From positions 1-32,515 of the forward strand of contig JAILQX010000003.1 in NCBI GenBank assembly GCA_024698705.1: DNA of 32,515 nucleotides. The letters are read 5' to 3'. The first letter of the stretch is position 1. Each line of letters begins with the position of its first letter. Shown here one piece after another: positions 14,451 to 31,747 of the stretch. Origin of the DNA: Lachnospiraceae bacterium. Lineage in GTDB: Bacteria; Bacillota; Clostridia; Lachnospirales; Lachnospiraceae. A model generated the notes under the pieces. It did not search any database and was not told where the DNA came from. It saw nothing but the letters and a program-made list of their open reading frames with translations. The translations under genes were made by a program, and so were the position numbers.

Positions 14451-14462
14451 TATAAATTAATG

Positions 14463-14515: not shown

Positions 14516-14566
14516 GTGAGAGAGCATGGTTTGGTGTCCTACAATTTCATAGATAAAGATTCTTAA
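14516..14566 (+). CDS. pyrL: pyrB leader peptide, 16 aa
   Basis: A GTG-started 16-codon ORF (MREHGLVSYNFIDKDS) with a good GGAGG site at 14504-14508, 7 bases before the start. Its TAA stop (14564-14566) overlaps the first bases of the terminator stem. In E. coli pyrBI, a ribosome closely following RNA polymerase through a leader ORF blocks the terminator when UTP is low; this layout fits the same logic. Sequence similarity to E. coli PyrL is not evident, so the name is by position and role. Confidence 0.55.
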   Translation: MREHGLVSYNFIDKDS

Positions 14567-14598
14567 CGGTGGGAATATTATTTTCTCACCGTTTTTTT
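14565..14598 (+). terminator. attenuator terminator before pyrB
   Basis: AACGGTGGGAA (14565-14575) pairs with TTCTCACCGTT (14583-14593), with one mismatched pair, and runs into a seven-T tract. It lies between the leader peptide and pyrB, so readthrough is needed for pyrB expression. I see no PyrR-binding consensus in the leader. Confidence 0.85.
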
Positions 14599-14632
14599 AG
14601 GTTATTTAATCAATTCAAAGGAGGAGAGAGAT

Positions 14633-15556: not shown

Positions 15557-15557
15557 T

Positions 15558-16010: not shown

Positions 16011-16058
16011 TTCTTTCGACTTTGTGTTATATTCTATATAGGCGAAAGGAGAGTATCA

Positions 16059-16445: not shown

Positions 16446-16460
16446 GATAATGAGGAGATC

Positions 16461-16490
16461 AGGCTGTGATTTATCACAGCCTTGTTTTTT
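16461..16490 (+). terminator. terminator-like hairpin just before folC
   Basis: AGGCTGTGA (16461-16469) pairs perfectly with TCACAGCCT (16474-16482), loop TTTA, followed by TGTTTTTT. It ends only about 6 bases before the folC start codon, so it could be an attenuator of folC as well as the end of the PH gene. Confidence 0.85.
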
Positions 16491-16495
16491 GAGAA

Positions 16496-17779
16496 ATGAA
16501 ATATACCGAATGTTTGGAACGAATTGATGAAACAGCCCACAGTGTGGGAATCGTACCCGGGCTTGATACCATAAGGGAATTGTGCCGTAGATTGGGTGAT
16601 CCGCAGGATAAGCTTAAGTTTATTCATATAGCAGGAACAAACGGCAAAGGATCATGCCTTGCATTTATTTCTTCGATCCTTAAGGAAGCGGGATATAAGA
16701 CAGGATGTTATTGTTCTCCCGTGATCCGAGATTACCGTGAAAGATTTACTATCAACGGACGTATGATATCCATGAAGGCGATGTGCGGATATATGGAGAG
16801 GATATTTGATATTTGTGACCGTATGGTTGCAGATGGATTCACTCACCCTTCTGCATTTGAAATTGAAACGGCAGTCGCGTTTTGTTATTTTCTTGATAAG
16901 GGCTGTGATGTGGTCGTACTTGAAGCCGGAATGGGAGGAAAACTGGATGCTACCAATGTTGTGAAAACAACCTCCCTGGCGGTACTCACATCCATTTCAA
17001 TGGACCATATGGCATACCTGGGTGATACACCGGCAAAGATCGCGGAAAACAAATGCGGTATCATTAAAACTCATGTGCCTGTTGTCAGCATGTATGCAAC
17101 AGAAGAAATCACGGAGGTTACAGACCGGATCTGTGCAGCCAATGAAACCGGCTGTACCTATGTCGACAGGGACAGCATCAAAAACATAAGATACGGAACA
17201 ACGAAACAGTTCTTTGAATACAGGTATACTAGATATGCGATATCGCTCCTGGGTACGTGGCAGACAGATAACGCCGCGCTTGCGATAGAAGCTGCGGAAA
17301 CGCTGATGTGGCACGGCTTTGAAAGGATCACATCCGAAAAGATAAAAAAGGGTCTGGCATCGGCTACCTGGCCCGCAAGGTTCCAGACAGTCTGTAAGAA
17401 TCCGCGCTTTATCATTGATGGTGCGCATAACGATGACGCAGCAAAAAGGCTGCGCGAATCGATCGATATATTTGCAAAAGACAAAAAGAAGATATATATC
17501 GTCGGAATGTTCAGGGATAAAGAGATCGAAAAAGTAATAAGCCGCATCACAGGTGACGGGGAACTGGTATTTACATGCGCTGCGAGAAGCGCCAGGGCCA
17601 TGGATCCGATCGAACTGGCCGGGATCGTAAGGAATATAAACCCGCGTGTGACAGCCTGCGATTCGGTAAATGAGGCAGTTGAATTTGCCATGGCGGCTGC
17701 GGATGAAGATACTGTCATAATCGCATTCGGGTCACTGGCTTATCTGGGGAAAATAATGGATATATTTGATGTCAAGTGA
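16496..17779 (+). CDS. folC: folylpolyglutamate/dihydrofolate synthase
   Basis: A 427-residue Mur-ligase-family enzyme that adds glutamate to dihydropteroate and/or folates, using ATP. The P-loop GTNGKGS is at 47-53; the F-T-I-N-G-R segment, the E-A-G-M-G-G-K-L-D-A-T-N block near 141-152, the SISMDHMAYLGDT block near 166-178, and DGAHN near 307-311 are all family signatures. The start is unusual: no ribosome binding site lies directly before the ATG, because the upstream hairpin and its T-run reach to within about 6 bases. A GAGGAG (16451-16456) lies on the far side of that hairpin. It is the first gene of the folate cluster. Confidence 0.92.
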   Translation: MKYTECLERIDETAHSVGIVPGLDTIRELCRRLGDPQDKLKFIHIAGTNGKGSCLAFISSILKEAGYKTGCYCSPVIRDYRERFTINGRMISMKAMCGYMERIFDICDRMVADGFTHPSAFEIETAVAFCYFLDKGCDVVVLEAGMGGKLDATNVVKTTSLAVLTSISMDHMAYLGDTPAKIAENKCGIIKTHVPVVSMYATEEITEVTDRICAANETGCTYVDRDSIKNIRYGTTKQFFEYRYTRYAISLLGTWQTDNAALAIEAAETLMWHGFERITSEKIKKGLASATWPARFQTVCKNPRFIIDGAHNDDAAKRLRESIDIFAKDKKKIYIVGMFRDKEIEKVISRITGDGELVFTCAARSARAMDPIELAGIVRNINPRVTACDSVNEAVEFAMAAADEDTVIIAFGSLAYLGKIMDIFDVK

Positions 17780-17836
17780 TATAATATGTTTTGACTTTTC
17801 AGCGTAGGGTCATGAATGATCCAAAGGAGCATTATT

Positions 17837-18394
17837 ATGATAGACAAGATTAAAGTTGAAGAAGCGGTTAAGATGCTTCTTGAGGCCATCGGCGAGGATC
17901 CGTCCAGAGAAGGTCTTGCCGAGACACCGGCCAGGATCGCAAGGATGTATGAAGAGATATTTGCCGGTATAGATGAAAGCCCGAAGCCGATACTTGCTAA
18001 GCGTTTTACATGTGATAACAGCGGGATAGTACTCGAAAAGGATATAACGTTTTATTCGATGTGCGAGCACCATCTGCTTCCGTTTTACGGAAAGGCTCAT
18101 GTGGCCTATATCCCGGGAAAGGAAGTCGTGGGACTCAGTAAGCTGGCAAGGACGGTGGAGTTATTTGCCAAAAGACCTCAGCTTCAGGAGCGTATGACGG
18201 CGCAGATAGCCGATGCGATCATGAGCGAGCTTGACTGTGCGGGTGTTATGGTCATGGTTGAGGCCGAGCATATGTGCATGACGATGAGAGGTGTCAAAAA
18301 GCCCGGAAGCACGACAGTAACCTGCCAGGCAAGAGGCGAATTCGAACGTGAAGACATGAAGGCGGCATTTTACAGGATGATGGGAAGAGACTGA
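17837..18394 (+). CDS. folE: GTP cyclohydrolase I
   Basis: A 185-residue type IA enzyme converting GTP to dihydroneopterin triphosphate, the first step of folate synthesis. Zinc ligands are visible as Cys76 and His79 in [12 protein letters not shown], plus Cys147 in HMCMTMRGV; the [10 protein letters not shown] motif is near 99-108. The ATG at 17837 is chosen over 17816 because AAGGAG (17824-17829) lies 7 bases before it and inside the longer version. Its stop overlaps the folP start (TGATG). Confidence 0.96.
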
Positions 18395-19194
18395 TGATAA
18401 TTGCTGATAAAACATATGATAAGAACAGAACATATATAATGGGAATCCTGAACGTTACACCGGATTCCTTTTATGATGGAGACAGATATTCGAGCCTTGA
18501 TCGTGCCGTTAAGCGTGCACTTACAATAGTTGAAGAGGGCGGGGATATCATAGATATAGGCGGAGAATCGACCAGACCGGGTTCAACTCATGTCAGCGAA
18601 CAGGAGGAACTTGAAAGGGTCATGCCGGTTATCGAAGCGGTCAGGCGTGAGGTCGATGTGCCCTTGAGTCTCGACACTTACAAGGCAAATGTTGCAGCAG
18701 AAGGGATAAAAGCGGGTATAGATCTTATCAATGACATTTGGGGCTTAAGATACGATGATAACATGGCCGGTGTTATTTCCGAGAGCGGTGTGGCATGTTG
18801 TCTTATGCATAACAGAAATGACAGGACATATAATGATCTTGTTAAAGATGTATACAATGAATTGAACGGGTGTATTGATATCGCACTTAAGGCGGGAATA
18901 GATAAAGACAGGATCATGATCGATCCCGGTATAGGCTTCGGCAAGGACACTGATCAGAACCTTGAAGTGCTCAAACACCTTGAAATATATAAAGACAGTC
19001 CGTATCCGGTCCTGCTCGGAGTGAGCAGGAAATCCGTCATAGGAAATGTACTTCATGTTGAGACCGAAGACAGGCTGAGCGGTACACTGGCGCTTGCTTC
19101 ATGGGGGATCGTTAATCATGTATCATGGTTAAGGGTACATGACGTAAAAGAACATGTACATACTGTGAAAATGCTTGAATATATGATAAGATGA
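18394..19194 (+). CDS. folP: dihydropteroate synthase
   Basis: A 266-residue TIM-barrel enzyme joining p-aminobenzoate to dihydropterin pyrophosphate. Signatures: MGILNVTPDSFYDGD at 16-30, DIGGESTRPGS near 51-61, the VPLSLDTYK region near 89-97, the DPGIGFGK motif near 177-184, and the LLGVSRKS block near 208-215. It is the target of sulfonamides. The one-base overlap with folE shows tight translational coupling. Confidence 0.96.
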   Translation: MIIADKTYDKNRTYIMGILNVTPDSFYDGDRYSSLDRAVKRALTIVEEGGDIIDIGGESTRPGSTHVSEQEELERVMPVIEAVRREVDVPLSLDTYKANVAAEGIKAGIDLINDIWGLRYDDNMAGVISESGVACCLMHNRNDRTYNDLVKDVYNELNGCIDIALKAGIDKDRIMIDPGIGFGKDTDQNLEVLKHLEIYKDSPYPVLLGVSRKSVIGNVLHVETEDRLSGTLALASWGIVNHVSWLRVHDVKEHVHTVKMLEYMIR

Positions 19195-19238
19195 ACTTAA
19201 GGGTAAACTGCAAAACAATCAATATTGAGGGGTGAAAT

Positions 19239-20057
19239 ATGGATCGGATAATAATCGAAGATCTTAAGGTGTATGCTTATCACGGAATCTATGAATCCGA
19301 AAAGGATAAGGGGCAGAATTTTTATGTGAATGCTGTTCTTTATACGGATTTCAGGGATTCTACCAAGAAGGATGATATCGAGCTTTCGGTCGATTATGCC
19401 GAGGTATGCAAGGTCATCAAGGAAACAATGACAGTCAAGACTTATGATCTGATAGAGACGGTTGCCGAGCGTGTTGCGGAGGCGCTGCTAATATCATTTT
19501 CCAGGGTTGAAGCAGTCGATATAGAGATCAGGAAGCCGCAGGCTCCGGTACCGATGGAATTTGAGTCTATCTCCGTTAAGATCAGCCGCAGATGGTCGGA
19601 GGCTTATATTTCATACGGATCGAATCTCGGAGACATGGAAGAGAATATCGAAAAAGCTCTCTTCAAACTGTGTGACAGGACCGATTGTAAGATGGTGCAG
19701 AATTCAACCCTGTACAAGACTAAGCCCTACGGCAATGTGGTACAGGATGATTTCCTGAACGGAGCATGTCTTATAAAAACATTGCTGGATCCCGAGGATC
19801 TGCTTGATGTCCTTCATGAACTTGAGAATGATGCCGGAAGAGTGAGAGACGTACATTGGGGACCCAGAACCCTCGATATGGATATTGTATTTTATGATGA
19901 TCTTATATTTGACAGTGACGATCTTATCATACCGCATGTGGATATAGAGAACAGGGAATTTGTACTCGCACCCATGGCGGAGATAGCACCTCACAAGAGA
20001 CATCCCATTTTCAGAAAAACAATACAGGAAATGTATAACGAACTTAAGAACAGATAA
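19239..20057 (+). CDS. folBK: bifunctional dihydroneopterin aldolase / HPPK
   Basis: A 272-residue fusion. Residues 1-118 are FolB (dihydroneopterin aldolase), with VYAYHGIYESEK near 11-22, SVDYAEV near 50-56 and E-x-R-K-P-x-A-P-V-P near 96-105. Residues 122-272 are FolK (6-hydroxymethyl-dihydropterin pyrophosphokinase), with SYGSNLGDMEENI near 125-137, the GPRTLDMDIVFYDD block near 208-221, IPHVDIENREFVLAPM near 231-246. Fusion of these two consecutive steps is known in Firmicutes. AGGGGTG lies before the ATG. It closes the folate cluster and is followed by a two-way terminator. Confidence 0.95.
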   Translation: MDRIIIEDLKVYAYHGIYESEKDKGQNFYVNAVLYTDFRDSTKKDDIELSVDYAEVCKVIKETMTVKTYDLIETVAERVAEALLISFSRVEAVDIEIRKPQAPVPMEFESISVKISRRWSEAYISYGSNLGDMEENIEKALFKLCDRTDCKMVQNSTLYKTKPYGNVVQDDFLNGACLIKTLLDPEDLLDVLHELENDAGRVRDVHWGPRTLDMDIVFYDDLIFDSDDLIIPHVDIENREFVLAPMAEIAPHKRHPIFRKTIQEMYNELKNR

Positions 20058-20060
20058 AAA

Positions 20061-20100
20061 TGAGCCGTGTGGTCATCCACACGGCTTTATTGATATTTTA
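20061..20100. terminator. bidirectional terminator between folBK and DUF5050 gene
   Basis: AGCCGTGTGG (20063-20072) pairs with CCACACGGCT (20077-20086), loop TCAT. There are T-rich stretches on both outer sides, so it serves the two convergent genes. Confidence 0.85.
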
Positions 20101-20112
20101 TCCGTAGTATAT

Positions 20113-21123
20113 CTATTTTACGTAGAAGGGACCCGCGGGGCTTGTACCGTTGTGAGGAGCATGGAAGACAACGGTCTCATCGTCAAATGACCTGTAGTAC
20201 ACATATTGCGATGTTGTCTGGATATCCTTGAACACGCCCTCGGAGAGCACGGTATCACCGCTGCCGTCAGATGATATGCGGTGGAGCGACGGGTTGGGTC
20301 CGACACTCACCTGATAATAGATAATGTCTCCGTAAATGTTGTAGAAATCTATCCTTTCTTCACTGAGTTTTGTATCCGTGTCAGAGAAAGGATCGTATCT
20401 GTGAAGGGTGTAATCATCAAAGGGATCTATAAAATATATCATACCGTCATCGTGATAAACGGGCATATAAACATCGTGCTCCCAATACGAGCCAACTGCT
20501 TCGGTAAGAGGATCGAGAGCATTCAGATAATGGTTACCAGATACACCGCTGAAATAGATGGTGCCGTTACGTATGCATGAAGGATCGATCATGTCGGGAC
20601 TGACCTGATGATCGTTCTCTCTGGCGATATCGATACTGTAAAGAGAAGTTCCGCTTGATTTGATATAGTTCTGATAAAACAATGTATTACCGTACAATAC
20701 GGCCCTGGCAACGGGATTCTGGGTGTAGCATATCGTATTGGTCCCTTTATGGTTGCTGCCGTAGAGTCCGGCAACCTTTCTTACGAAGCCGAGGCCCGAG
20801 CCGGCTGATTTGCCTGACTGGCAATAATATATCCTGTGGTCATCAACGTTTATGGAAAGGACGGCAGTATTGATGAGTTTTTTGATCCCGGACTCATCGG
20901 GGTTCATGACATACAGCGAGTCATTATCACCTGCATAGGCAAAATAAACCTTCCCGTCATGCTCACAGTAATAACCGCCATTGTAAAGATTGGATGCGGT
21001 ATTGCCAACGTAGTCCACAGGATTCTTGTAGGTACGGTGGCTGAAAAAAAGCATAACGGCAATAATCCCAAGAAATACGATAACCGAACATATAATTATA
21101 AGGTTTTTTAGTTTATTATCCAT
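20113..21123 (-). CDS. DUF5050 beta-propeller-like membrane-anchored protein
   Basis: A 336-residue protein. Residues 7-28 form one hydrophobic segment, so the rest is likely outside the cell. The start of the outer part (GNTASNLYNGGYYCEHDGKVYFAY, split here into its motifs NLYNGG and GKVYFAY near 40-58) is the typical DUF5050 beginning, followed by repeated Y-Y-x-x and D-x-x-x-Y-Y/F strand units resembling beta-propeller blades (for example IYYCQS, TLFYQNY, IYFSGVS, IYFIDP, IIYYQV, YVYYRS). Ligand and function are unknown. It is divergent from the DUF815 gene and shares a -35 palindrome with it. Confidence 0.8.
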   Translation of the reverse strand: MDNKLKNLIIICSVIVFLGIIAVMLFFSHRTYKNPVDYVGNTASNLYNGGYYCEHDGKVYFAYAGDNDSLYVMNPDESGIKKLINTAVLSINVDDHRIYYCQSGKSAGSGLGFVRKVAGLYGSNHKGTNTICYTQNPVARAVLYGNTLFYQNYIKSSGTSLYSIDIARENDHQVSPDMIDPSCIRNGTIYFSGVSGNHYLNALDPLTEAVGSYWEHDVYMPVYHDDGMIYFIDPFDDYTLHRYDPFSDTDTKLSEERIDFYNIYGDIIYYQVSVGPNPSLHRISSDGSGDTVLSEGVFKDIQTTSQYVYYRSFDDETVVFHAPHNGTSPAGPFYVK

Positions 21124-21168
21124 ATTTTAAAATGTTCCCGTCTTGTGGAATCAACTGTTTATATATAA

Positions 21169-21197
21169 ATTATAGACGGAGTATTTCTTGATATCAA
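21169..21197 (-). promoter_or_regulatory. promoter of DUF5050 gene
   Basis: On the reverse strand TTGATA (21197-21192), 17 bp, TATAAT (21174-21169). Its -35 lies inside the palindrome TTGATATCAA shared with the opposite promoter. Confidence 0.8.
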
Positions 21198-21216
21198 GGT
21201 CAATCTGCGATAAGAT
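21188..21216 (+). promoter_or_regulatory. promoter of DUF815 ATPase gene
   Basis: TTGATA (21188-21193), 17 bp, TAAGAT (21211-21216). The -35 overlaps the opposite-strand -35 by two bases within the 12-bp palindrome CTTGATATCAAG (21187-21198). Confidence 0.75.
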
Positions 21217-21252
21217 TTATACATACAATCGAATACGGGACGGAATGGAAAA

Positions 21253-22545
21253 ATGTTGATAAACGAATTGATATTATACAAGATCGATGAAAATGAAACT
21301 ATATTGAAAAACATGTCATATCTTATGGATCTTATGGAAAGACCCAAAGAGGAAAGAGACACCGTAAAAATGCGCGACATGTTCTATTCGTGCATGCAGG
21401 GACTCCTTGAACTTGGCGGTAACTACGGATTTTACGGTAATCTCTGGCATTGTTATCTGGCCAATATCCTGGTCAACAATGAGAACAGTTACAGCCGGTC
21501 AACCGAGATAGTAGGTAATATCGTCGGTACGATCAATGATGCCGTATTGCATGACATTGTTATTTTCAAAAAACTCTTTGATTACAGTTTTGATGATATG
21601 ATCTCATTTCTTGATATAGACGGCTTTGATCTCATACTGGATTACAGAGCAAGCTGTGAAGAGAGCAAGGTATATAACCAGAGGATCAAGGAGAGGATAT
21701 GCACGCTTGCGGCCAGGTTCAACGATGACCACACACCGACCGAGATGAAGGATACCCTGACAGATTTCTACAGGGATTACGGTGTCGGTAAATTCGGACT
21801 GCATAAGGCTTTCAGGATCGAGGAAAAGGACGGGGAAACGCAGATCGTTCCGATACTCAATATTGCCCATGTAAAACTTGACGATCTTGTGGGATATGAG
21901 ATACCAAAGAAGAAACTGACTGACAACACCGAAGCATTTGTTGACGGCAAACGTGCGAACAACTGCCTCCTTTACGGTGATGCGGGAACCGGTAAATCTT
22001 CTTCGATAAAGGCCATAACCAATGCATATTACGAGAGAGGATTAAGGGTCATAGAGATATACAAGCATCAGTTTAAAATGCTCAATGATGTCATTGCCCA
22101 GATCAAAAACAGAAATTATAAATTCATAATATACATGGATGACTTAAGCTTCGAGGATTTCGAGATAGAATACAAATACCTGAAGGCAGTTATTGAAGGC
22201 GGACTTGAGAAAAAGCCTTCAAATGTGCTCATCTATGCTACATCAAACAAAAGACATCTGATAAATGAGACATTTTCCGAGAGAGAGGATGCTTTAAATG
22301 TAAGAGATACGATGCAGGAGAAACTCTCGCTCGTAGCAAGATTCGGTGTAACGATCTATTTCGAATCACCGGAAAAGAAGGAGTTTCAGAATATCGTAAG
22401 GGAACTGGCCTCAAGGGCGGGACTTAAGCTTACGGATGAGGAACTCATGAAAGAAGCAAATAAATGGGAGATGACCCATGGAGGTTATTCCGGAAGAGCC
22501 GCGACCCAGCTCATAGATTATCTTCTGGGTAAACAGCAGGTATAA
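21253..22545 (+). CDS. DUF815 AAA-type ATPase
   Basis: A 430-residue protein. The N-terminal ~185 residues are helical and of unknown role. The C-terminal part is the DUF815 ATPase: DLVGYEIPKKKLTDNTEAF near residues 212-230, Walker A GDAGTGKS at 242-249, Walker B FIIYMDDLSFE near 294-304, and an ATSNKRHLI sensor-like motif near 332-340. The family is widespread, often annotated only as ATP-binding protein. The start codon is preceded by GGAATGGAAA. It has its own promoter and lies 26 bp before ppk1, so the two are probably cotranscribed. Confidence 0.88.
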   Translation: MLINELILYKIDENETILKNMSYLMDLMERPKEERDTVKMRDMFYSCMQGLLELGGNYGFYGNLWHCYLANILVNNENSYSRSTEIVGNIVGTINDAVLHDIVIFKKLFDYSFDDMISFLDIDGFDLILDYRASCEESKVYNQRIKERICTLAARFNDDHTPTEMKDTLTDFYRDYGVGKFGLHKAFRIEEKDGETQIVPILNIAHVKLDDLVGYEIPKKKLTDNTEAFVDGKRANNCLLYGDAGTGKSSSIKAITNAYYERGLRVIEIYKHQFKMLNDVIAQIKNRNYKFIIYMDDLSFEDFEIEYKYLKAVIEGGLEKKPSNVLIYATSNKRHLINETFSEREDALNVRDTMQEKLSLVARFGVTIYFESPEKKEFQNIVRELASRAGLKLTDEELMKEANKWEMTHGGYSGRAATQLIDYLLGKQQV

Positions 22546-22571
22546 CAGCAAGTTAAAAAGGGGTATGACAA

Positions 22572-24644
22572 ATGGCGAAGAAGAGTCTGTACAATCCTGA
22601 ATATTATTATAACAGGGAACTAAGCTGGCTGAAATTTGATGAAAGAGTCCTCTTGGAAGCATGGGACAGGAATACTCTGCTTTTTGAAAAACTTAAATTC
22701 TTAAGTATCACGGCATCCAATCTGGACGAATTCTTTATGATAAGGGTTGCTTCACTCAAGGACATGGTCAATGCGGGATACCGAAAGACCGATATCGCAG
22801 GTATGACTCCAAAGGAGCAGCTTGAAAAGATCGACAAAGCCACACATAAGCTTGTCGATAAGCAATATGAGACATATTCCACACTTTGGAGCGAACTTAA
22901 GGATAAAGGGATAGAGATAATCGGTAAGGACAGGAAACTGACCAAAAAGCAGGAAAAATATATAGAGAATTATTTCATGACCAATATTTATCCGGTACTT
23001 ACTCCCATGGCTGTTGACAGCTCGAGACCGTTTCCGCTGATACGCAACAAGACACTCAATATCGGTGCCATCGTACATAAGAAGAACGATCCTTCAAAGG
23101 AGATCGAATTTGCGACTGTTCAGGTCCCGAGTGTGCTTTCGAGGATAGTCGAGATACCGCAGGATGCCGGTGGAACCAGGCTTTTCATGCTTCTCGAGGA
23201 CATAATAGAGAGATATATCAGCAAGCTGTTTCTCAATTATGAGATCGTATCGACATGTCAGTTCAGGATCATGAGAAATGCCGATCTTACCATCGATGAG
23301 GATGAGGCTGCCGATCTTCTCAAGGAGATAGAAAAGCAGATCAAGAAACGTCAATGGGGAGAGGTCATCAGGCTTGAGATAAGCGATTATTCGGACGGTC
23401 AGCTGGTAGCGATCTTAAAGAACGAATTATTTATCAGGGAAGAGGATACATATTATATCAACGGTCCGCTGGATCTCACATTTCTCATGAAGATATACGG
23501 ACTCGAGGGATATGAAGACATGAAGCTTTCCGAGCATGTGCCTTCGCCCGTTAAGGAGATGAGAGACAAGGCGAGCATATTTGATGCTATAAAGGAAAAG
23601 GACATACTTGTTCATCATCCTTATCAGTCATTCGAACCGGTCGTTGATTTTATAAAGGAAGCCAGCAGGGATCCCAATGTCCTTGCGATCAAACAGACAT
23701 TGTATAGGGTATCCGGAAATTCACCGATAATCGCGGCGCTTGAGTCTGCGGCGGATAACGGGAAACAGGTAACCGTTCTTGTCGAGCTCAAGGCCAGATT
23801 TGATGAGGAAAATAATATAGTTTGGGCCAGACAGCTCGAACATGCCGGATGTCACGTTATATACGGGCTGGTAGGCTTAAAGACTCACAGCAAGATAACC
23901 CTTGTGGTAAGAAAAGAAGAAGACGGCATAAGAAGATATGTCCATCTCGGTACAGGCAATTACAATGATGCGACTGCCAAACTGTATACGGATATCGGTC
24001 TGTTCACATCGAAGGAATCCTACGGTGAGGATGCAACAGCTGTTTTCAACATGCTCAGCGGTTATTCGGAGCCGGAAGCGTGGAATAAACTTTCATTGGC
24101 ACCGCTGTGGCTTAAGGACAGATTCTTACAGCTCATAGACAGAGAGAAGAAGATAGCCAAAACAGGAGCGGAGGCTCACATTATCGCAAAGGTCAATTCG
24201 CTCTGTGATGCCGATATCATAGAAGCTTTGTATGAGGCCGGTATGGCAGGTGTAAAGATAGACCTGATCATACGAGGCATATGCTGCATCAAGGTGGGAA
24301 TACCGGGAATAAGCGACAATATCAGTGTGCGTTCCATCGTAGGCAATTTCCTTGAGCACAGCAGGATATTCTATTTCCACAATAACGGTTCGCCGGAGAT
24401 TTTCTGCGGAAGTGCTGACTGGATGCCGAGAAATCTGGAGAGGAGAGTTGAGATACTGTTTCCAATTGAACAGGAGGACCTTAAGAAAAAGATCTGTCAT
24501 ATACTCGATGTGGAGATGAAGGACAATGTAAAGGCCCATATACTCATGCCGGATGGAACTTACGTCAAGGAAGAGGTTAAGAAGGAAGACAGGATCAATT
24601 CCCAGATGATATTTGTTAAAGAACAGAGAAAAAAAGCCGAATAA
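22572..24644 (+). CDS. ppk1: polyphosphate kinase 1
   Basis: A 690-residue PPK1 that makes long-chain polyphosphate from ATP. The N-terminal domain opens with the YYNRELSWLKFDERVL block near residues 12-27 and SNLDEFFMIRVA near 49-60. The phospholipase-D-like catalytic half carries the phosphohistidine His439 in LKTHSKITLV and the partner His near RYVHLGTGNYND; a second such site is near the SADWMPRNLERRVE block close to the C-terminus. Length is normal. AAAAGGGG precedes the ATG. Coexpression with the DUF815 ATPase and the following small acidic protein is likely. Confidence 0.96.
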   Translation: MAKKSLYNPEYYYNRELSWLKFDERVLLEAWDRNTLLFEKLKFLSITASNLDEFFMIRVASLKDMVNAGYRKTDIAGMTPKEQLEKIDKATHKLVDKQYETYSTLWSELKDKGIEIIGKDRKLTKKQEKYIENYFMTNIYPVLTPMAVDSSRPFPLIRNKTLNIGAIVHKKNDPSKEIEFATVQVPSVLSRIVEIPQDAGGTRLFMLLEDIIERYISKLFLNYEIVSTCQFRIMRNADLTIDEDEAADLLKEIEKQIKKRQWGEVIRLEISDYSDGQLVAILKNELFIREEDTYYINGPLDLTFLMKIYGLEGYEDMKLSEHVPSPVKEMRDKASIFDAIKEKDILVHHPYQSFEPVVDFIKEASRDPNVLAIKQTLYRVSGNSPIIAALESAADNGKQVTVLVELKARFDEENNIVWARQLEHAGCHVIYGLVGLKTHSKITLVVRKEEDGIRRYVHLGTGNYNDATAKLYTDIGLFTSKESYGEDATAVFNMLSGYSEPEAWNKLSLAPLWLKDRFLQLIDREKKIAKTGAEAHIIAKVNSLCDADIIEALYEAGMAGVKIDLIIRGICCIKVGIPGISDNISVRSIVGNFLEHSRIFYFHNNGSPEIFCGSADWMPRNLERRVEILFPIEQEDLKKKICHILDVEMKDNVKAHILMPDGTYVKEEVKKEDRINSQMIFVKEQRKKAE

Positions 24645-24685
24645 TATAATGAAATGGTTGATAACACGGAAGCGGAGGTGAGAGA

Positions 24686-24949
24686 ATGTTCAACTATGAT
24701 GAGACGGTATTGGATGTATTTTTGGAAAATCAGGAGAAATTGTATCCGGAAACTGTAGCCGCGACCAGAGAAGAGGCTGACGATTTTCTCAGCGAAGTGA
24801 TGGCTGTGGTTGTAGAGAATTCAAAAGAGGTTCGGGAGTATTTTGAAGAGCAGTGCATCGACGTGGAAGGTGCGGATCTCGATGAGATACTCGAAGCCGA
24901 TGAAGTATTTGAACTTCCGGACGGCAGGTATCTGATCGTGGAAGCTTAA
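24686..24949 (+). CDS. small acidic protein of unknown function
   Basis: An 87-residue, strongly acidic protein with no Cys-rich or membrane region (one Cys only). The end LPDGRYLIVEA looks like a conserved beta hairpin. Relatives in Lachnospiraceae are, as I recall, carried under misleading names such as glyoxalase; nothing in the sequence supports that. GGAGGTGAG precedes the ATG well. It follows ppk1 by 41 bp and ends at a strong terminator, so it is probably the last gene of that unit. Confidence 0.7.
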   Translation: MFNYDETVLDVFLENQEKLYPETVAATREEADDFLSEVMAVVVENSKEVREYFEEQCIDVEGADLDEILEADEVFELPDGRYLIVEA

Positions 24950-24961
24950 AAAAAGCATTAT

Positions 24962-24990
24962 AAAAGGGTTGCCGAGTGGCAACCCTTTTT
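24962..24990. terminator. bidirectional terminator
   Basis: AAAAGGGTTGCC (24962-24973) pairs with GGCAACCCTTTT (24978-24989), loop GAGT, with A- and T-runs on the two sides. It ends the ppk1 unit and also the convergent gene at 25016. Confidence 0.92.
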
Positions 24991-25015
24991 ATCATATGCC
25001 GGTATATTAAAGATA

Positions 25016-26608
25016 CTAAACACCTTTGATGATAACATTGATAACTTCAAGATCTGTTTTATCCATGTTTTCTTTCTTTACCGAAAGGAACTGTTCATCC
25101 GTAATACCAAGGTTTCCGATAAGAAGCTGAATATCGATCGGGATCACGTAGGTGGATACGGGTTCCTCTACAACAGGAGTTTCAGGTGTAGGATGGAACT
25201 GTGCGGCAACCTTTGCTGCATCATATGCTTCCTGAAGCATTCTGGTAAGTTCGGTGGCAGCCATATGTTCAGCTTCGGCTTTTGCTCTGGCAAGTGCTTT
25301 CTGTTCGGCTTCCATACGTTTCTCGATAGCGATCGCTTCGGCAGCGGCTTTTTCTTCAGCAGCCTTTGCAGCGGAAGCTTTGGCATTGGCGTATTTTTCC
25401 TGTGCTTCAAGTATTGCTTTCTCTATAACGAGTGCTTCCTCGGGACTTACGACCGTTCTGTTGGCCATAGCTTCCTCGAGTTCTCTTGCTTCTTTTGCGG
25501 CGATCTCGGCTTCAAGTTCAGCCTTGGCAGCTTCATCTATCTTCTGGTTAGCCTGCTGGTTTGCCATAGCAGCCTGCATTGCAGCCATAGCATCTTCGGC
25601 AGCTTTTGCTTCAGCATCAGCTTTTGCGGCAGCTTCTTCGGCAGCGGCAGCTTCAGCGGCTCTCGCAGCTTCTTCAAGTGCGAGTCTTGCTTCTTCAGCG
25701 CGTCTTGCATCCTCAGCAGCCTTTGCTTCTCTTGCACGTCTTGCTTCTTCAGCAGCCTTTGCGGCATCTTCAAGAGCTCTCTGTGCTTCAGCTGCAAGTC
25801 TTGCTTCTTCAGCAGCTCTTGCTTCTGCTTCTTGTCTTGCTTTTTCTTCAGCAGCCTTTGCTTCGGCGATCGCTTTCTGTGCAGCGGCCATAGCTTCTTC
25901 GGCGGCCTTTGCCATAGCAGCGGCTTTTTCTGCCTCTTCGGCAGCCTTTGCTTCAGCGGCGAGTCTTGCTTCTTCAAGCTGAGCGGCTTTCTCTGCGGCA
26001 GCCTTGGCAGCCTGTTCAGCAGCGCTGGTTGTATCATCATCCTGGGGGATAGCGGGAGCAGTGGCAGCTTTGGCTTTTTCAGCCTGTTCAGCTGCGGCCT
26101 TTTCGGCAGCGATCCTGGCTTCCTCCATGGCTTTTTCTTCTTCTGCACGTCTTGCTTCTTCAGCAGCTTTTTCTTCAGCGGCACGCCTTGCTTCCTCGGC
26201 GGCCTTCTCAGCGGCGAGTCTTGCTTCTTCGGCAGCCTTTGCTTCGGCTTCGGCTCTTGCGGCTTCTTCGGCTGCAGCCTTCTCAGCGGCGAGTCTTGCT
26301 TCCTCGGCAGCCTTCTCGGCAGCGATCCTGGCTTCCTGGGCAGCCTTTGCTTCTGCAGCGGCTTTGAGAGCAGCGGCTTTTTCTTCAGCGGCTCTTATGG
26401 CTTTTGTCTTGGAAGGCAGAACACCTTTTTTGTTTTTCACCAAATTATCAACAATGTTTACCGGGTCCCAGTCACGATGAAGAGAACGTTCTGAGTTGTA
26501 ATCACTTCTTTCGATATTACATTCTTCAAGCAGTTCCTCGATCGTATCGTAATAACTACCGTCGTAGTAAAGCGTTGTTGGTCTTTTTACGATATCTTTT
26601 AATCCCAT
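25016..26608 (-). CDS. bead-rod-bead protein A (paralogue of 27373 gene)
   Basis: A 530-residue protein with three parts. Residues 1-69 are a folded-looking head with KRPTTLYYDGSYYD (8-21), then a ~38-residue repeat (24-62). Residues about 70-470 are an Ala/Glu/Lys/Arg-rich rod built of units such as AAEEARLAAEK, strongly predicted to be one long helix or coiled coil. Residues 493-530 are a second copy of the repeat (LL...NLGI...F..VK....D..DLEVINVI). The same head and repeat occur in the gene at 27373 on the other side of mscL. No signal peptide or membrane helix is present, so it is probably cytoplasmic. GGAGG precedes the ATG and a TATAAT promoter lies upstream. I recognise no named family; TolA-like rods are similar only in composition. 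Confidence 0.8.
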   Translation of the reverse strand: MGLKDIVKRPTTLYYDGSYYDTIEELLEECNIERSDYNSERSLHRDWDPVNIVDNLVKNKKGVLPSKTKAIRAAEEKAAALKAAAEAKAAQEARIAAEKAAEEARLAAEKAAAEEAARAEAEAKAAEEARLAAEKAAEEARRAAEEKAAEEARRAEEEKAMEEARIAAEKAAAEQAEKAKAATAPAIPQDDDTTSAAEQAAKAAAEKAAQLEEARLAAEAKAAEEAEKAAAMAKAAEEAMAAAQKAIAEAKAAEEKARQEAEARAAEEARLAAEAQRALEDAAKAAEEARRAREAKAAEDARRAEEARLALEEAARAAEAAAAEEAAAKADAEAKAAEDAMAAMQAAMANQQANQKIDEAAKAELEAEIAAKEARELEEAMANRTVVSPEEALVIEKAILEAQEKYANAKASAAKAAEEKAAAEAIAIEKRMEAEQKALARAKAEAEHMAATELTRMLQEAYDAAKVAAQFHPTPETPVVEEPVSTYVIPIDIQLLIGNLGITDEQFLSVKKENMDKTDLEVINVIIKGV

Positions 26609-26633
26609 CTGATTATTTCCTCCATTAACAAAT

Positions 26634-26662
26634 ATTATAGCCCCATTTGACTGATTTTTGAA
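26634..26662 (-). promoter_or_regulatory. promoter of bead-rod-bead gene A
   Basis: On the reverse strand TTCAAA (26662-26657), 17 bp, TATAAT (26639-26634). It gives a 5' UTR of about 20 bases. Confidence 0.65.
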
Positions 26663-26707
26663 TTGTTTTTATTAACTTTGTTTATTTTTTTCGTAAAAAT
26701 GATATAA

Positions 26708-26737
26708 TTGACTTGAATTTAAGAAAAGTAGTGTAAA
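26708..26737 (+). promoter_or_regulatory. probable promoter of mscL
   Basis: TTGACT (26708-26713), 18 bp, TGTAAA (26732-26737). The -10 is weak, and a dyad GTAGTG...CACTAC (26728-26733 and 26756-26761) covers it, as a repressor site might. An alternative -10 is the TATAAT at 26703-26708. Confidence 0.4.
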
Positions 26738-26764
26738 ATTTATATGAAAATTGTGCACTACACA

Positions 26765-26804
26765 AGCCACACCTTCATGAAATTTAACTTTTTACGGTGT
26801 GGCT
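26765..26804 (+). promoter_or_regulatory. 5' UTR hairpin of mscL
   Basis: AGCCACACC (26765-26773) and GGTGTGGCT (26796-26804) form a perfect 9-bp stem with a 22-base AT-rich loop. No T-run follows on either strand, so it is not a standard terminator. It ends 12 bases before the mscL ribosome binding site. Confidence 0.6.
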
Positions 26805-26828
26805 CTCAATAGATATGGGAGGGTGATC

Positions 26829-27239
26829 ATGAAAAAAATTGCAAAAGAGTTTAAAGAATTCATATCGCGAGGTAACGTTATGGACATGGCTGTCGGAGTT
26901 ATCATCGGCGGAGCTTTTACAGCTATAGTAACTTCGCTTGTTAATGATATCATAATGCCTGTTCTGTCATTGCTCACCGGTGGTTTTGATTTTACCGCTT
27001 TATGTGTGAAGCTGGGAGAAGGAGAGGAAGCAGCAACACTTAATTACGGTGCCTTTATAGCAGCGATCATCAACTTCATACTTATCGCGCTGGTTATTTT
27101 TTTCATTATCAAGAGTATCAACAAGGTTTCAAAGAAGAAAGAACCCGAAGCCACTACCAAGGAATGTCCTTATTGCTTCGAGAAGATATCTATCAAAGCT
27201 ACAAGATGTCCTCATTGTACAGCAGAACTTGATAAATAG
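26829..27239 (+). CDS. mscL: large-conductance mechanosensitive channel with zinc-ribbon tail
   Basis: A 136-residue MscL, a pentameric pore that opens under membrane tension to release solutes in osmotic downshock. The N-terminal amphipathic helix ([15 protein letters not shown], 2-16), the pore helix with [14 protein letters not shown] near 21-34, the periplasmic loop (about 50-72) and the second helix (about 76-97) are all present. In place of the usual C-terminal helix, residues 113-130 form a zinc ribbon with Cys113, Cys116, Cys127 and Cys130. GGGAGG precedes the ATG at 26829; the frame is open further up but that GTG lies in the hairpin. It lies between two paralogous genes, divergent from one and convergent with the other. 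Confidence 0.95.
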
Positions 27240-27294
27240 AAGAGCAGTTGATATAAAAAGCGCAGCATATATTTAAAAGGGTATCGTATAAAAT

Positions 27295-27324
27295 AAAAAA
27301 GACGTCCTGACGGGCGTCTTTTTC
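27295..27324. terminator. terminator after mscL
   Basis: A-run, then GACGTCC pairing with GGGCGTC (loop TGAC), then a T-run. Symmetric, so it works in both directions. Confidence 0.9.
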
Positions 27325-27330
27325 ATGCAT

Positions 27331-27364
27331 AAAAAAATCCGGTGATCGCTCACCGGATTTTTAT
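27331..27364. terminator. second terminator, ends bead-rod-bead gene B
   Basis: AAATCCGGTGA (27335-27345) pairs with TCACCGGATTT (27350-27360), loop TCGC, with A- and T-runs outside. Two strong hairpins back to back insulate the convergent genes. Confidence 0.9.
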
Positions 27365-27372
27365 GATATATA

Positions 27373-28371
27373 TTATCTGCTCTTAATGATCGCATTGATA
27401 ACATCAAGGTCTGACCAGTCACTGTGGATCTGCTTAACAAGCTGGAATCCAATCTTAGGTGTGTTAAGGTTTGCAAGCAATTCATCAAAGTCTTTGCTTG
27501 TTTCGCCGATTGGATTACCCTTGGTTGTAAGGATAGCATTGACGATATCAAGATCAGACATATCTGACTGTACCTGTTTAACAACAAGGAAACCTTCCTT
27601 TGCAATGTTAAGGTTTACAAGCAATTCATCAAACGCTTTTGCTGTACTTCCGCTGGGAGCGGGTGTCGGTTTAGCTGCTGCTTTGTCTGTCTTTGCTGCA
27701 TCGGCAGCCTGTGTGTAATCATACTCGTTCATGGTTGTTTTGTCCTCCTTAGTCTTTTCCGGTGCTGTCTCTGAGACAGACTTGTCTTTTTCTTCGGTCT
27801 TTTCAACTTTTTCGTCAACCTTGGCTTCTTCGCGGGCCTTTAGCATCTCGGCTATCTTGGCATCAACTGCACTTGTGTCGACAGGTTTATCTTTTGTCTT
27901 TTCTTCGGCCTTAGCGGAATCCTTGTCGTCTTTAGCATCAGACTTATCTTCAGCTTTATCTGCCTTATCGGCTTTAGCATCAGCCTTGGCACCTTCCTTG
28001 ACTTCTTCTTTGACTTCCTTTTCGGCTTCTGCAGCTGCAGGAACTTTTTCTTCTGCCTTTGTCTCGGCAGGAGCGGGCTCCGGTTTTTCCTCTTCGGGTA
28101 TGTTGACAAGATTGATAACAGGTTCATCATTGCCTGCCTTCTTTGCCTTATACTGAGGATTCTTTGAAGGTAAAACGCCTTTGTTTGACTTTACGAGAAA
28201 ATCAACAACGTTCATCGCATCCCAATCACGATGTGTAGCCTTAACTTGTGTGTAATCCGCCCTCGTTATATTACATGCAGCGAGAAGATCATCAACGCTG
28301 TTGTAATAGTCGCCGTCAAAAAACAAGGTTGTGGGTCTTTTGACGGTTTCAATAACATCTTTTATTCCCAT
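27373..28371 (-). CDS. bead-rod-bead protein B (paralogue of 25016 gene)
   Basis: A 332-residue protein. Residues 1-70 match the head of protein A closely (VKRPTTLFFDGDYYNS, then THRDWDAMNVVDFLVK and GVLPSK). The ~38-residue repeat appears three times: 27-65, 247-284 and 295-332, the last two as FDELL-x-NLN...F..VKQ...SD.SDLD..NAI. Between them, residues about 71-245 are a Lys/Glu/Ala/Asp/Ser-rich linker that looks highly charged and partly disordered. No membrane segment or export signal. I place the start at 28371, with AGAGGTG just upstream, instead of 28392. It follows a HAD gene on the same strand by 74 bp. No known family recognised. Confidence 0.8.
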   Translation of the reverse strand: MGIKDVIETVKRPTTLFFDGDYYNSVDDLLAACNITRADYTQVKATHRDWDAMNVVDFLVKSNKGVLPSKNPQYKAKKAGNDEPVINLVNIPEEEKPEPAPAETKAEEKVPAAAEAEKEVKEEVKEGAKADAKADKADKAEDKSDAKDDKDSAKAEEKTKDKPVDTSAVDAKIAEMLKAREEAKVDEKVEKTEEKDKSVSETAPEKTKEDKTTMNEYDYTQAADAAKTDKAAAKPTPAPSGSTAKAFDELLVNLNIAKEGFLVVKQVQSDMSDLDIVNAILTTKGNPIGETSKDFDELLANLNTPKIGFQLVKQIHSDWSDLDVINAIIKSR

Positions 28372-28445
28372 ATCATTCACCTCTCTAAACAATATTATAT
28401 ATATAATAACACAAAAAGCAAACTAAATTTTTACAAAATCATGTA

Positions 28446-29249
28446 TTATTTTACTGATTTTTCAATATAACGGGCAAGACCGTCGTTATTGTTGTCAAAT
28501 TCAGTTATAATGTCGCAATAATCAAATATTTTCGGATTGCCGTTGCACATTCCGACACCGGTACCGGCGGCTCTGAGCATGGAAATATCATTTTCCTCAT
28601 CGCCGAAAGCATAGGAATCCTTTATGTCAATGCCAAGGTAATCACACAGCAGTCTTAAAGCTTCACCTTTTCCGGCATTTGCAGGAAATACTTCAAGATA
28701 TCTGCTGTTGGAGAACAGGGTGGTGAGAGAAGAAAAACCTTCATCCACAAGTTTTGAAAACCGCACCAGTTTTTCATGATCTTCAAGATCTATCGCAAGA
28801 AGTTTGCACGGAGGTTTATCCATCACGTTTGTCGGATCCGATGCGATGAGCAGGGGATGAGGACAGCGTATCATATAAAAATCAGTCTCTTTTGTACGTT
28901 TCCCGATCACCAGTGAAGTATCGGTGTAGGTCTGGATGTATACCCCGTTTTCTTTTGCCAGCTGCCATACTTTTCGCACTTCTTCATATGTGAGCCTTGA
29001 TTCAAACACCGTCTCGAGTTTGTCACAGTCGTATATGAGAGTACCGTTGGTGGCAATGATGTAAGAACCGGGAAGGTTAAGATTAAGGTCGCTTAAAACC
29101 TTGAGTACGCTCGGAAGAGAACGTCCGGAAGAGAATGCGATATTATTGCCGGCTGATGTATATCCCGTAAGTATTTTCCTTGTATAATCAGATATGACGG
29201 AATCATCATTTAAGAGGGTTCCGTCAAGATCGGTAAATATTATGCTCAT
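28446..29249 (-). CDS. Cof-type HAD-IIB phosphatase
   Basis: A 267-residue haloacid-dehalogenase phosphatase of subclass IIB (Cof type), which usually acts on sugar phosphates or flavin-type phosphates. Motif I is TDLDGTLL with nucleophile Asp7 and Asp9; motif II is the SSGRS near 40-44; motif IV is GDEENDISML near 216-225. Its start overlaps the stop of the PHP gene (ATGA), so it is the third gene of an ABC-F - PHP - HAD operon. The exact substrate is unknown. Confidence 0.9.
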   Translation of the reverse strand: MSIIFTDLDGTLLNDDSVISDYTRKILTGYTSAGNNIAFSSGRSLPSVLKVLSDLNLNLPGSYIIATNGTLIYDCDKLETVFESRLTYEEVRKVWQLAKENGVYIQTYTDTSLVIGKRTKETDFYMIRCPHPLLIASDPTNVMDKPPCKLLAIDLEDHEKLVRFSKLVDEGFSSLTTLFSNSRYLEVFPANAGKGEALRLLCDYLGIDIKDSYAFGDEENDISMLRAAGTGVGMCNGNPKIFDYCDIITEFDNNNDGLARYIEKSVK

Positions 29250-30091
29250 ATCATTTTCCTTTTGTAGGCGGTCAGGGTATCGAGGACACTGTCGTCCACA
29301 TACATCTTTCCGTAGCCGGTCCCGAGCTCAAGTCCGGGTTTTGCATCACCGTGGAAATCACTTCCGCCGCTGATCAGAAGATCGTGTTTCGCGGCAAGTT
29401 TACGCATATCACGTTCATCGGAAGCAGTGTAGGTGCCGTATATGGCTTCCATACCGACAAGTCCCGCTTCTTTAAGTTCGATCACAAGATCTTCAAGCGC
29501 ATCCTTGCCGAGACCGTACAGAAGAGGATGTGCAAGAATGGGTAATCCGCCGGCTTTTTTTATAAGATCCATACCGCGTTCGGGTGTGACCTTTTCACGC
29601 GGTACATAATAGGGACAATGGTCTCCGATGTACCTGTCAAAGGCTTCCTTTACGGATTTGATATAGCCTTTTTCAAGCATGTATCTTGCAAAATGAGCTC
29701 GTGTGATGACTGATTCTCCGTAGCGTGCACAAAGCTCGTCATAATCCGTGACAAGTCCGGCTTTGGTGAGTTTATCGCACATCTTTCTGTTGCGAACGGA
29801 TCTGGAATCGACGAAATCATTGAGTTCTTTTATGAACCTGCTGTCGTGATGATCGATGAACAGACCGACAATGTGCACATCATGTCCGTTGCGGTCACAG
29901 CTGAGTTCTACTCCGGGGATGACGTTCACACCGGTATCATAGCCTCTTTCCATCGCTTCGTCCAGGCCGGTGACAGTATCGTGATCGGTCAGTGCGATGG
30001 CACTTAAGCCCTTTGCACTTGCAAGATCTATGAGTTCGGTCGGCGAAAGGCTGCCGTCCGATCTGTTGGAATGTGAATGAAGATCAACCAT
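29246..30091 (-). CDS. PHP domain phosphoesterase
   Basis: A 281-residue PHP-family metal phosphoesterase of the YciV/RNase AM type, whose members remove phosphate from 3',5'-nucleotides or trim RNA ends. Metal ligands are visible in DLHSHSNRSDGSLSP (His5, His7, Asp12), in LTDHDT near 36-41, in H-P-L near 188-190, and in the GGSDFHG block near 242-248. CGGAG precedes the ATG. It is 18 bp from the ABC-F gene and overlaps the HAD gene. Confidence 0.88.
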   Translation of the reverse strand: MVDLHSHSNRSDGSLSPTELIDLASAKGLSAIALTDHDTVTGLDEAMERGYDTGVNVIPGVELSCDRNGHDVHIVGLFIDHHDSRFIKELNDFVDSRSVRNRKMCDKLTKAGLVTDYDELCARYGESVITRAHFARYMLEKGYIKSVKEAFDRYIGDHCPYYVPREKVTPERGMDLIKKAGGLPILAHPLLYGLGKDALEDLVIELKEAGLVGMEAIYGTYTASDERDMRKLAAKHDLLISGGSDFHGDAKPGLELGTGYGKMYVDDSVLDTLTAYKRKMI

Positions 30092-30109
30092 ACAAATACT
30101 CCGTTATGA

Positions 30110-31747
30110 TCAGTTATCGTCATCCTCACGGTTGGCGACATATACCGTACGTTTTCTGGCCATTTCATCGCTGGCAAGATATTCGTCATAGGTCGTTATC
30201 TTATCTATTATCGAACCGTCGGGCATTATCTCGATGATCCTGTTGGCGGTAGTTTGTACAAACTGATGGTCACGGCAGGAGAAGAGGGCGACACCCTTGT
30301 ATTTGATGAGACCTTCGTTGAGAGCCGTGATGGCTTCCATGTCGAGATGGTTGGTCGGCTCGTCCAGGATCAGACAGTTTGCACCGCTTATCATCATTTT
30401 GGAAAGAAGACATCTTACCTTTTCACCACCGGAAAGGACCTTTACCTTTTTGATACCGTCATCTCCGGCAAAAAGCATCCTTCCGAGGAAGCCGCGCACA
30501 TAGGTCACATCCTTTACAGGCGAATAACCTGTAAGCCATTCGGTTATATTGTAATCATTGTTGAATTCGTCAGTACTGTCCTTCGGGAAATAAGCCTGTG
30601 AGGTGGTAACCCCCCATTTATAGGTTCCCTCATCGGGTTCAAGCTCGCCCATCAGGATCTTGAACAATGTTGTCTTTGCGAGCTCGTTGCTGCCGACAAA
30701 TGCTATCTTGTCATCGTGTCCCATTATAAATGAAACATTATTGAGTACTTTTTCACCGTTTACCGTCTTGCTGATACCTTCGACAGAAAGGACCTCATTG
30801 CCGATCTCACGATCCGGTCTGAAGTCGATATAAGGGTATTTTCTTGATGAAGGCTTGATCTCGTCAAGTTCGATCTTTTCAAGAGCACGTTTCCTTGAAG
30901 TTGCCTGCTTTGATTTGGAAGCATTTGCGGAGAAACGTGAGATGAATTCCTGTAATTCCTTGATCTTTTCCTCTTTTTTCTTGTTGGCTTCCTTCATCTG
31001 TTTGATGAGCAGCTGGCTTGACTCATACCAGAAATCATAGTTGCCGGCATAAAGTTCAATCTTGCCGTAGTCGATATCTGCAGTATCCGTGCAGACTTTA
31101 TTCAAAAAGTAACGGTCGTGGGAAACCACGATGACCGTATTTTCAAAATTGATCAAAAATTCTTCGAGCCAGGCGATGGCAGCCAGGTCAAGGTTGTTGG
31201 TCGGCTCGTCGAGGAGAAGAATGTCAGGGTTGCCGAAAAGGGCTTTGGCAAGAAGGACCTTGACCTTATCTGCGCCGTTTAAGCTGCCCATTTGTGAATA
31301 ATGAAGATCAGTCCCGATCCCAAGACCGTTTAACAGGGTGGCAGCGTCTGCTTCCGCATTCCATCCGTCCATTTCGGCGAATTCCGCTTCAAGCTCGCTT
31401 GCACGAATACCGTCCTCATCGTTAAAATCTTCCTTTAAATAGATCGCGTCTTTTTCCTTCATGACATCGTACAGATGCTGATTGCCCATGATAACCGTAT
31501 CAAGAACCGTATATTCGTCATATTTGAAGTGATCCTGTTCTAACACGGAAAGGCGCTGTCCCGGTGTAATGATAATCTCACCGTTCGTCGGTTCAAGATC
31601 GCCGGAAAGGATCTTTAAAAATGTGGATTTACCGGCACCGTTGGCACCGATGAGTCCGTAGCAGTTGCCCTCGGTAAATTTGATGTTCACCTCTTCAAAG
31701 AGGGCTTTTTTACCGATCCGAAGTGTAATGTTGCTCGCTTGTATCAT
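30110..31747 (-). CDS. ABC-F ATPase, YkpA/YbiT type
   Basis: A 545-residue ABC-F protein with two ATPase domains and no membrane part; the class acts on ribosomes in translation or antibiotic protection. Domain 1: Walker A GANGAGKST at 34-42, signature SLNGADKV near 155-162, LLLDEPTNNLD near 177-187 and switch His210 in SHDR. The linker (about 243-300) is basic and charged as usual. Domain 2: Walker A reads GSNELAKTT at 352-360, the signature LSGGEKVR near 438-445 is intact, LILDEPTNHLD near 459-469, but the switch region is SCRDHQF, with Arg492 in place of the usual His. The degenerate second P-loop (AKTT) is, as I recall, normal for the YkpA group. Confidence 0.92.
   Translation of the reverse strand: MIQASNITLRIGKKALFEEVNIKFTEGNCYGLIGANGAGKSTFLKILSGDLEPTNGEIIITPGQRLSVLEQDHFKYDEYTVLDTVIMGNQHLYDVMKEKDAIYLKEDFNDEDGIRASELEAEFAEMDGWNAEADAATLLNGLGIGTDLHYSQMGSLNGADKVKVLLAKALFGNPDILLLDEPTNNLDLAAIAWLEEFLINFENTVIVVSHDRYFLNKVCTDTADIDYGKIELYAGNYDFWYESSQLLIKQMKEANKKKEEKIKELQEFISRFSANASKSKQATSRKRALEKIELDEIKPSSRKYPYIDFRPDREIGNEVLSVEGISKTVNGEKVLNNVSFIMGHDDKIAFVGSNELAKTTLFKILMGELEPDEGTYKWGVTTSQAYFPKDSTDEFNNDYNITEWLTGYSPVKDVTYVRGFLGRMLFAGDDGIKKVKVLSGGEKVRCLLSKMMISGANCLILDEPTNHLDMEAITALNEGLIKYKGVALFSCRDHQFVQTTANRIIEIMPDGSIIDKITTYDEYLASDEMARKRTVYVANREDDDN

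Follow-up and report, generated by a model that had tools for sequence, protein, structure and literature searches.

Two paralogous genes share a repeat at their ends

The contig JAILQX010000003.1 is part of a 2.5 Mb Lachnospiraceae assembly in 54 contigs (GCA_024698705.1), and the whole stretch of it that we analysed, hereafter the window, is 32,515 nucleotides long. Two genes on its reverse strand, A (25016..26608, 530 amino acids) and B (27373..28371, 332 amino acids from an ATG), encode proteins in which small domains, here called beads, are joined by spacers: A has two beads, separated by a long stretch rich in Ala and Glu, and B has three. For B, a TTG at 28392, 21 bases upstream of the ATG, is also open. 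Read by eye, neither protein has a signal peptide or a membrane segment. An earlier reading of the window from its letters alone (the sequence-only reading) had taken A and B for paralogues with a common opening motif. Consistent with this, BLASTP aligned the N-terminal ~75 residues of the two proteins with 42/76 identities (E = 6e-30), and ~35 C-terminal residues of A with both C-terminal copies of the repeat in B. The opening K-(R/K)-PTTL-(Y/F)-(Y/F)-DG, together with HRDW-(D/E), is present in all five A and all six B sequences found.

In a 39-column register, the repeat occupies residues 22–60 and 492–530 of A, and residues 25–63, 246–284 and 294–332 of B. The two copies in A and three in B are confined to the protein ends, within 1–2 residues of the positions first assigned to them. 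On the chromosome (all on the reverse strand), the N-terminal bead of A (residues 8–67) spans 26408..26587, with its copy at 26429–26545, and the C-terminal bead of A spans 25019..25135. The N-terminal bead of B, with its beta-hairpin, spans 28162..28341 and contains a copy at 28183–28299; the two C-terminal beads of B, C1 and C2, lie at 27520..27636 and 27376..27492, respectively.

We next compared profiles of the N-terminal and C-terminal copies, which the sequence-only reading had described as one repeat. The hhalign score was 28.7 (probability 85), against a mean of 8.6 (standard deviation 1.8) and a maximum of 16.1 for 200 column-shuffled N profiles. A profile of the N copies only found C2 of B in six-frame searches with E-values of 0.0012–0.0024 in 5/5 genomes with a complete B. 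We also scored each model against shuffled decoys (88,842–93,113 of 100,000 decoys scored). No decoy was as good when the model of the B C-terminal copies retrieved the C copy of A, when the model of the A C-terminal copy retrieved both C copies of B, or when the N model retrieved C2; when the B C-terminal model retrieved the N copy of B, 1–4 of 93,113 decoys were as good. The same model reached the N copy of A with 117–221 decoys as good (9,524 in one species), and the N model found C1 weakly (495–1,208 decoys as good). The N model failed to retrieve the C copy of A (6,906–25,825 decoys as good), and the A C-terminal model failed to retrieve the N copies (1,161–86,661). Hence, the expectation that profiles of the copies would find one another held between the C copies of A and B, in both directions, and from the N copies to C2; it failed from the N copies to the C copy of A and from that copy back to the N copies. 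Because the N model misses the C copy of A while retrieving C2, the relation between the N copies and the C copy of A is, as judged from the profiles, transitive, with C2 as the link between N and C beads. The five species are not independent for the N copy of B, since four of its five copies are identical.

With a pooled bead model, every one of the five genomes that hold both genes complete gave five copies, and the genome in which B is cut by a contig end gave one. Further genes with the repeat, which the earlier reading had suggested seeking, were represented by A and B themselves in 6/20 genomes of the genus, with no copy outside A and B in these 20 genomes at an E-value of 0.1. Separately, a protein of the source genome with a weak Sel1 repeat (L035:667-1614, contig C21) has a tail resembling the N bead (match at 215996-216100, E = 0.006), which also matches DUF2525 weakly (E = 0.0078); this tail is either a distant bead or a chance match.

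Predicted fold of the beads and searches for known families

We predicted the structure of B alone with AlphaFold2, both without an alignment and with five sequences. The N bead was predicted as a beta-hairpin and three helices, with block values of the predicted local distance difference test (pLDDT) of 83–88 over residues 21–60, and C1 and C2 as three helices each, with block pLDDT of 58–69 and 52–74, respectively. Helix boundaries match across the three copies: the first helix ends at column 8, the second covers columns 13–22, and the third covers columns 28–37 in the N copy and 28–38 in C1 and C2. The hairpin in front of the repeat belongs to N copies only and is extra to the three-helix core. 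Thus, the prediction gives all three copies of B a common three-helix core, with modest confidence for the C copies, in agreement with the small helical fold that had been expected of all copies; a difference in fold between N and C copies, which would have counted against a shared repeat, was not seen.

Foldseek found nothing significant in the PDB (best E = 3.9) or among viral models (best E = 0.73). The top viral match, an intron-associated endonuclease (probability 0.77, 55 columns, root-mean-square deviation 3.0), and the weak PDB matches, which include the DNA-binding proteins C.Esp1396I and Myb (E = 3.9–9.5), are therefore insignificant. The beads had no convincing match in Pfam, NCBIfam, PHROGs, PADLOC or PDB sequences, in line with the failure of the sequence-only reading to recognise a described family. 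Weak bead matches were to DUF6945 (E = 0.058), P4Ha_N (0.12) and DUF1965 (0.19) in Pfam, to phrog_23160 (E = 0.19) and to PDB entry 4bru (E = 0.18); NCBIfam matches (best E = 0.0014) begin and end within or beside the B spacer. Rfam gave nothing at gathering score, viral-contig scans confirmed no relative, and tblastn against phages and plasmids gave only matches with E-values of 3–7, the flanks of two phage matches being uninformative. Word searches of an open-access library found no matching protein among the papers listed, which does not establish absence from print.

Several candidate relatives were rejected. DUF6945, the match of the B N bead, matched once in 196 genomes, below the family cut-off, in a protein that by eye resembles MltG/YceG. 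The pooled bead profile had 19 matches among PDB sequences (best E = 0.087), mostly designed repeat proteins over 11–15 residues. NUMOD1 had no match in the source genome at an E-value of 1e-5, and matched in 1/60 genomes, in an unrelated protein. IF2_N (PF04760), in a comparison built on 22 IF2_N loci, aligned with the beads at hhalign scores of 10.8–15.9 (probability at most 10, 8–15 columns), near those of shuffled profiles: shuffles (50 each) reached 12.2 for A1, 16.9 for A2 and 12.6 for A3, such that the scores for A1 (13.5) and A3 (15.9) slightly exceed their own shuffles. The positive control, IF2 N1 against N2, scored 40.3 over 47 columns. By the libraries searched, the bead is an undescribed, lineage-restricted domain, as far as sequence comparison can indicate; bead–spacer–bead layouts themselves already exist.

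The spacers of A and B differ

The A spacer (residues 68–484) is 41% Ala and 21% Glu. It comprises rod 1 (residues 68–182, 26063..26407), a break (residues 183–196, 26021..26062) and rods 2 and 3 (residues 197–472, 25193..26020). The five A rods have no heptad (3.5) or hendecad (11/3) peak, periodicity power being 0.2–2.2 at 3.5 and 0.6–3.3 at 11/3, versus 8.9–12.0 at the strongest period. There are 47 K/R to D/E pairs at i+4, versus 14.7 ± 3.2 in shuffles; such pairing is described as favoured in single alpha-helices (PMC5347031). By the sequence criteria given in that source, namely a charged sequence with i+3/i+4 charge pairs and no hydrophobic seam, the A spacer looks like a single alpha-helix. 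The B spacer (residues 71–213, 27733..28161) is charged and mostly predicted disordered, and has at its end the motif MNEYDYTQ (27709..27732), which does not vary among the five complete B sequences. The rods of the sequence-only reading are thus borne out for A, where the spacer is long and helix-prone, but not for B, where it is largely predicted disordered and variable in length.

We compared insertions, deletions and divergence over the 10 pairs of five species, excluding the contig-end-cut B of G014. Rods 2 and 3 (276 residues, 85% identity) have no gap column in any pair and are constant in length. By contrast, rod 1 varies in length among species, with 124 gap columns, and the B spacer has 144 gap columns at 56% identity. 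Because gaps are absent from rods 2 and 3 while abundant elsewhere, despite imperfect tandem repeats in the rod DNA, we read this as probable selection on the length of rods 2 and 3.

Selection and codon usage

The ratio of nonsynonymous to synonymous divergence (pN/pS) in A is 0.13 for the N bead, 0.15 for the C bead, 0.18–0.20 for the rods and 0.62 for the break between rods; in B it is 0.09 for the beads and 0.47 for the spacer. For comparison, Ppk1 and MscL have values of 0.12 and 0.13. The coding region of the B N bead (28162-28371) has a pS of 0.315, versus 0.776 for Ppk1; this low synonymous divergence perhaps exceeds the effect of codon bias.

We scored codon usage by likeness to GroES/GroEL of three relatives, leaving out L017. 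Among 25 window genes, B ranked first, A second and MscL third. A ranked first and B second of 8 genes in both L016 and L018, and B ranked first and A third of 7 genes in L015. This codon usage suggests that A and B are abundant in the cell.

A and B occur in one group of genomes at a rearranged locus

With B as the query, we found matches in 6/61 genomes, all from the source genus, and the N-bead profile matched in 6/20 genus genomes. A family sample (299 genomes) gave three matches: the source genome and two that are chance-like, one with stop codons in the match and the other opposite a long reading frame. A class sample (391 genomes) gave no match beyond the source genome. Scanning a genome collection gave five loci, all in Lachnospiraceae metagenome-assembled genomes (MAGs) and the same as the five other genus matches; two of these MAGs are labelled water-buffalo and yak rumen.

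Genomes of the genus were grouped by identity, not by a tree, and the locus was read in the genus other than G004 and G010. Eight genomes, including the source genome itself, are close to the source (Ppk1 80–81% or PHP 65–68%); other genus genomes with matches to these proteins have values of 64–71% for Ppk1 and 54–58% for PHP. Of the eight, five have A and B complete and one has a B cut by the contig end. The contigs of the remaining two stop within HAD or a short way past Ppk1, making the absence of A and B there uninformative. Among ten other genus members, seven span Ppk1 to HAD without A or B, and three are partial. A and B co-occur in all five genomes with a complete locus. For three members of the group, G014, G009 and G015, the contig (L014, L108 and L109, respectively) stops within the A/B region or close to it. 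Assemblies may break there at low-complexity spacer DNA, which makes absence from MAGs unreliable.

The gene order in the window, L015, L017 and L018 is DUF815, Ppk1, an 87-amino-acid gene, A, mscL, B, HAD, PHP, ABC-F, with one inserted gene in L015. In L016, whose contig begins at HAD, the order is the same over the part covered, and two genes, including an MCP, are inserted. The seven complete sister stretches read DUF815, Ppx-like, Ppk1, Maf-like, ABC-F, PHP, HAD (the DUF815 end of L107 not being covered), and the 87-amino-acid gene was recognised in 3/7 of them. Ppx and Maf were identified by Pfam in one genome (G017) and by eye in the other nine. Relative to L101-L107, the A/B group (window 21253-31747) has the ABC-F/PHP/HAD block inverted, has A, mscL and B, and is missing Ppx-GppA and Maf from the Ppk1 locus, a statement on this locus only, as Ppx was not searched for elsewhere. 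The mscL gene (26829-27239, forward strand, divergent from A) lies between A and B in all five complete A/B loci, but at other sites in the ten sister genomes. Genes without a Pfam assignment bear names given by eye, such as those we take to be PFOR, FolC and PyrB. Elsewhere in the window, an open reading frame of 446 amino acids (933-2273) has no Pfam match at an E-value of 0.001.

Possible roles of A and B

With somewhat less than even confidence, we propose that A and B are cytoplasmic multivalent tethers or scaffolds. The beads would serve as protein-binding modules, recognising either one another or a partner that they have in common. In A, the spacer would fold as a stable single alpha-helix with occasional breaks and keep the two ends far apart; at 0.15 nm per residue, a spacer helical over all 405 residues would reach at most about 60 nm. 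B would act as a flexible trivalent cross-linker. Together, they may link two structures to each other or form an intracellular network. We consider it rather unlikely that the pair is, more specifically, a two-component, lineage-specific cytoplasmic scaffold built from the same beads, with A as a rigid single-helix ruler and B as a flexible trivalent cross-linker. The same low probability covers what such a scaffold would do in a Gram-positive gut or rumen bacterium, namely keep cell structures a set distance of tens of nanometres apart or form a protein network.

Several points weigh against the proposed tether. The predicted structures cover B only, and the pLDDT of its C beads is modest (52–74). 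The likeness of the A spacer to a single alpha-helix is a call from composition, the strongest period of the A rod (3.25) is unexplained, and the comparison of spacer lengths spans only five species. Codon bias is indirect, the background set being the window genome, and the L015 scores of MscL (0.108) and ABC-F (0.084) resemble those of B (0.110) and A (0.093).

Alternatively, A and B could be DNA-bridging nucleoid proteins, with beads acting as small helix-turn-helix modules and spacers joining distant DNA sites. The hairpin with three short helices fits such a module, as do the endonuclease at the top of the viral Foldseek matches and the several DNA-binding proteins among the weak PDB matches. 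These matches are insignificant, however, and five bead sequences have no helix-turn-helix or NUMOD family in Pfam at an E-value of 10. The beads are also acidic (pI 4.3–5.6), which speaks against DNA bridging; we regard this explanation as clearly improbable. A filament or cytoskeletal element, in which the beads of A would join it end to end into polymers that B caps or cross-links, would make use of the head-to-tail geometry given by one bead type at both rod ends, and the abundance suggested by codon usage would also favour it; the lack of a heptad or hendecad signal in the A rod argues the other way, and we hold this explanation to be distinctly improbable. The linker, cross-bridge or filament protein of the sequence-only reading thus fits the anatomy as a linker or cross-bridge, while the filament lacks the heptad signal.

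The adjacent polyphosphate kinase gene raises the prospect that A and B are associated with granules, for example of polyphosphate, which appears very improbable. Acidic proteins bind polyphosphate poorly, and sister genomes that have neither A nor B also carry Ppk1 at this locus. On the other hand, Ppk1 lies two genes from A/B in the five complete loci, two of which carry inserted genes, the Ppk1 site of the A/B clade has no Ppx, and a protein with a role in granule spacing exists elsewhere (AlgP, PMC9239181). A further explanation concerns the repeat rather than its function: N and C repeats may be convergent three-helix elements, with only the C copies truly related. The N copies miss the C copy of A and find C1 only weakly, and the A C-terminal model misses the N copies, as convergence would have it; however, the retrieval of C2 by the N model with no decoy as good, the hhalign score well above the shuffle maximum, and the matching helix boundaries in N and C copies of B all oppose it, and we judge convergence to be similarly improbable to a filament. 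It is compatible with the tether, DNA-bridging, filament and granule readings alike, and does not exclude any of them.

Whichever role applies, the bead is a domain that is small, well delimited and absent from the libraries searched. A and B are a natural pair made from it, one with a valence of two on a rod, the other with a valence of three on a flexible chain. Should the beads bind one another or a single partner, the pair would be a compact test case for the way in which bacteria control spacing or the formation of networks through spacer stiffness and valence, and for how single lineages invent structural proteins.

Comparison with known systems

TolA-like Ala-rich helical proteins (TIGR02794, E = 0.54, B spacer only) likewise have a charged Ala-rich spacer between end parts, but A and B, by eye, have no signal peptide or membrane segment, and the match reflects composition only. 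The NUMOD/helix-turn-helix parts of intron-associated endonucleases (GIY-YIG enzymes, PMC1564403) resemble the N bead by eye in combining a hairpin with short helices; unlike them, the beads have no Pfam match, are acidic and come with no nuclease domain. The N-terminal region of IF2, which is present in the source genome, is also a bead–spacer–bead arrangement with related small beads, its two IF2_N domains. By profile comparison, its beads are unrelated or nearly so to those of A and B; its spacer here is not an Ala-rich rod, and A and B have no GTPase part.

PopZ, a polar scaffold of Caulobacter, is similar to B in layout, with a helical N part, a disordered linker and a helical C part, and serves as a working analogue only. 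The resemblance is by layout alone. B has copies of one bead at both ends, and we know of no rigid-rod partner of PopZ like A. In PopZ, according to PMC9512792, the N part binds clients and the valence of the C part drives assembly. For A, the closest counterparts in design are single alpha-helix linkers, which similarly have no hydrophobic seam, have K/R to E pairs at i+4, and join two domains (PMC5347031, PMC4183817); the A rod differs from these in being about 40% Ala and in having breaks.

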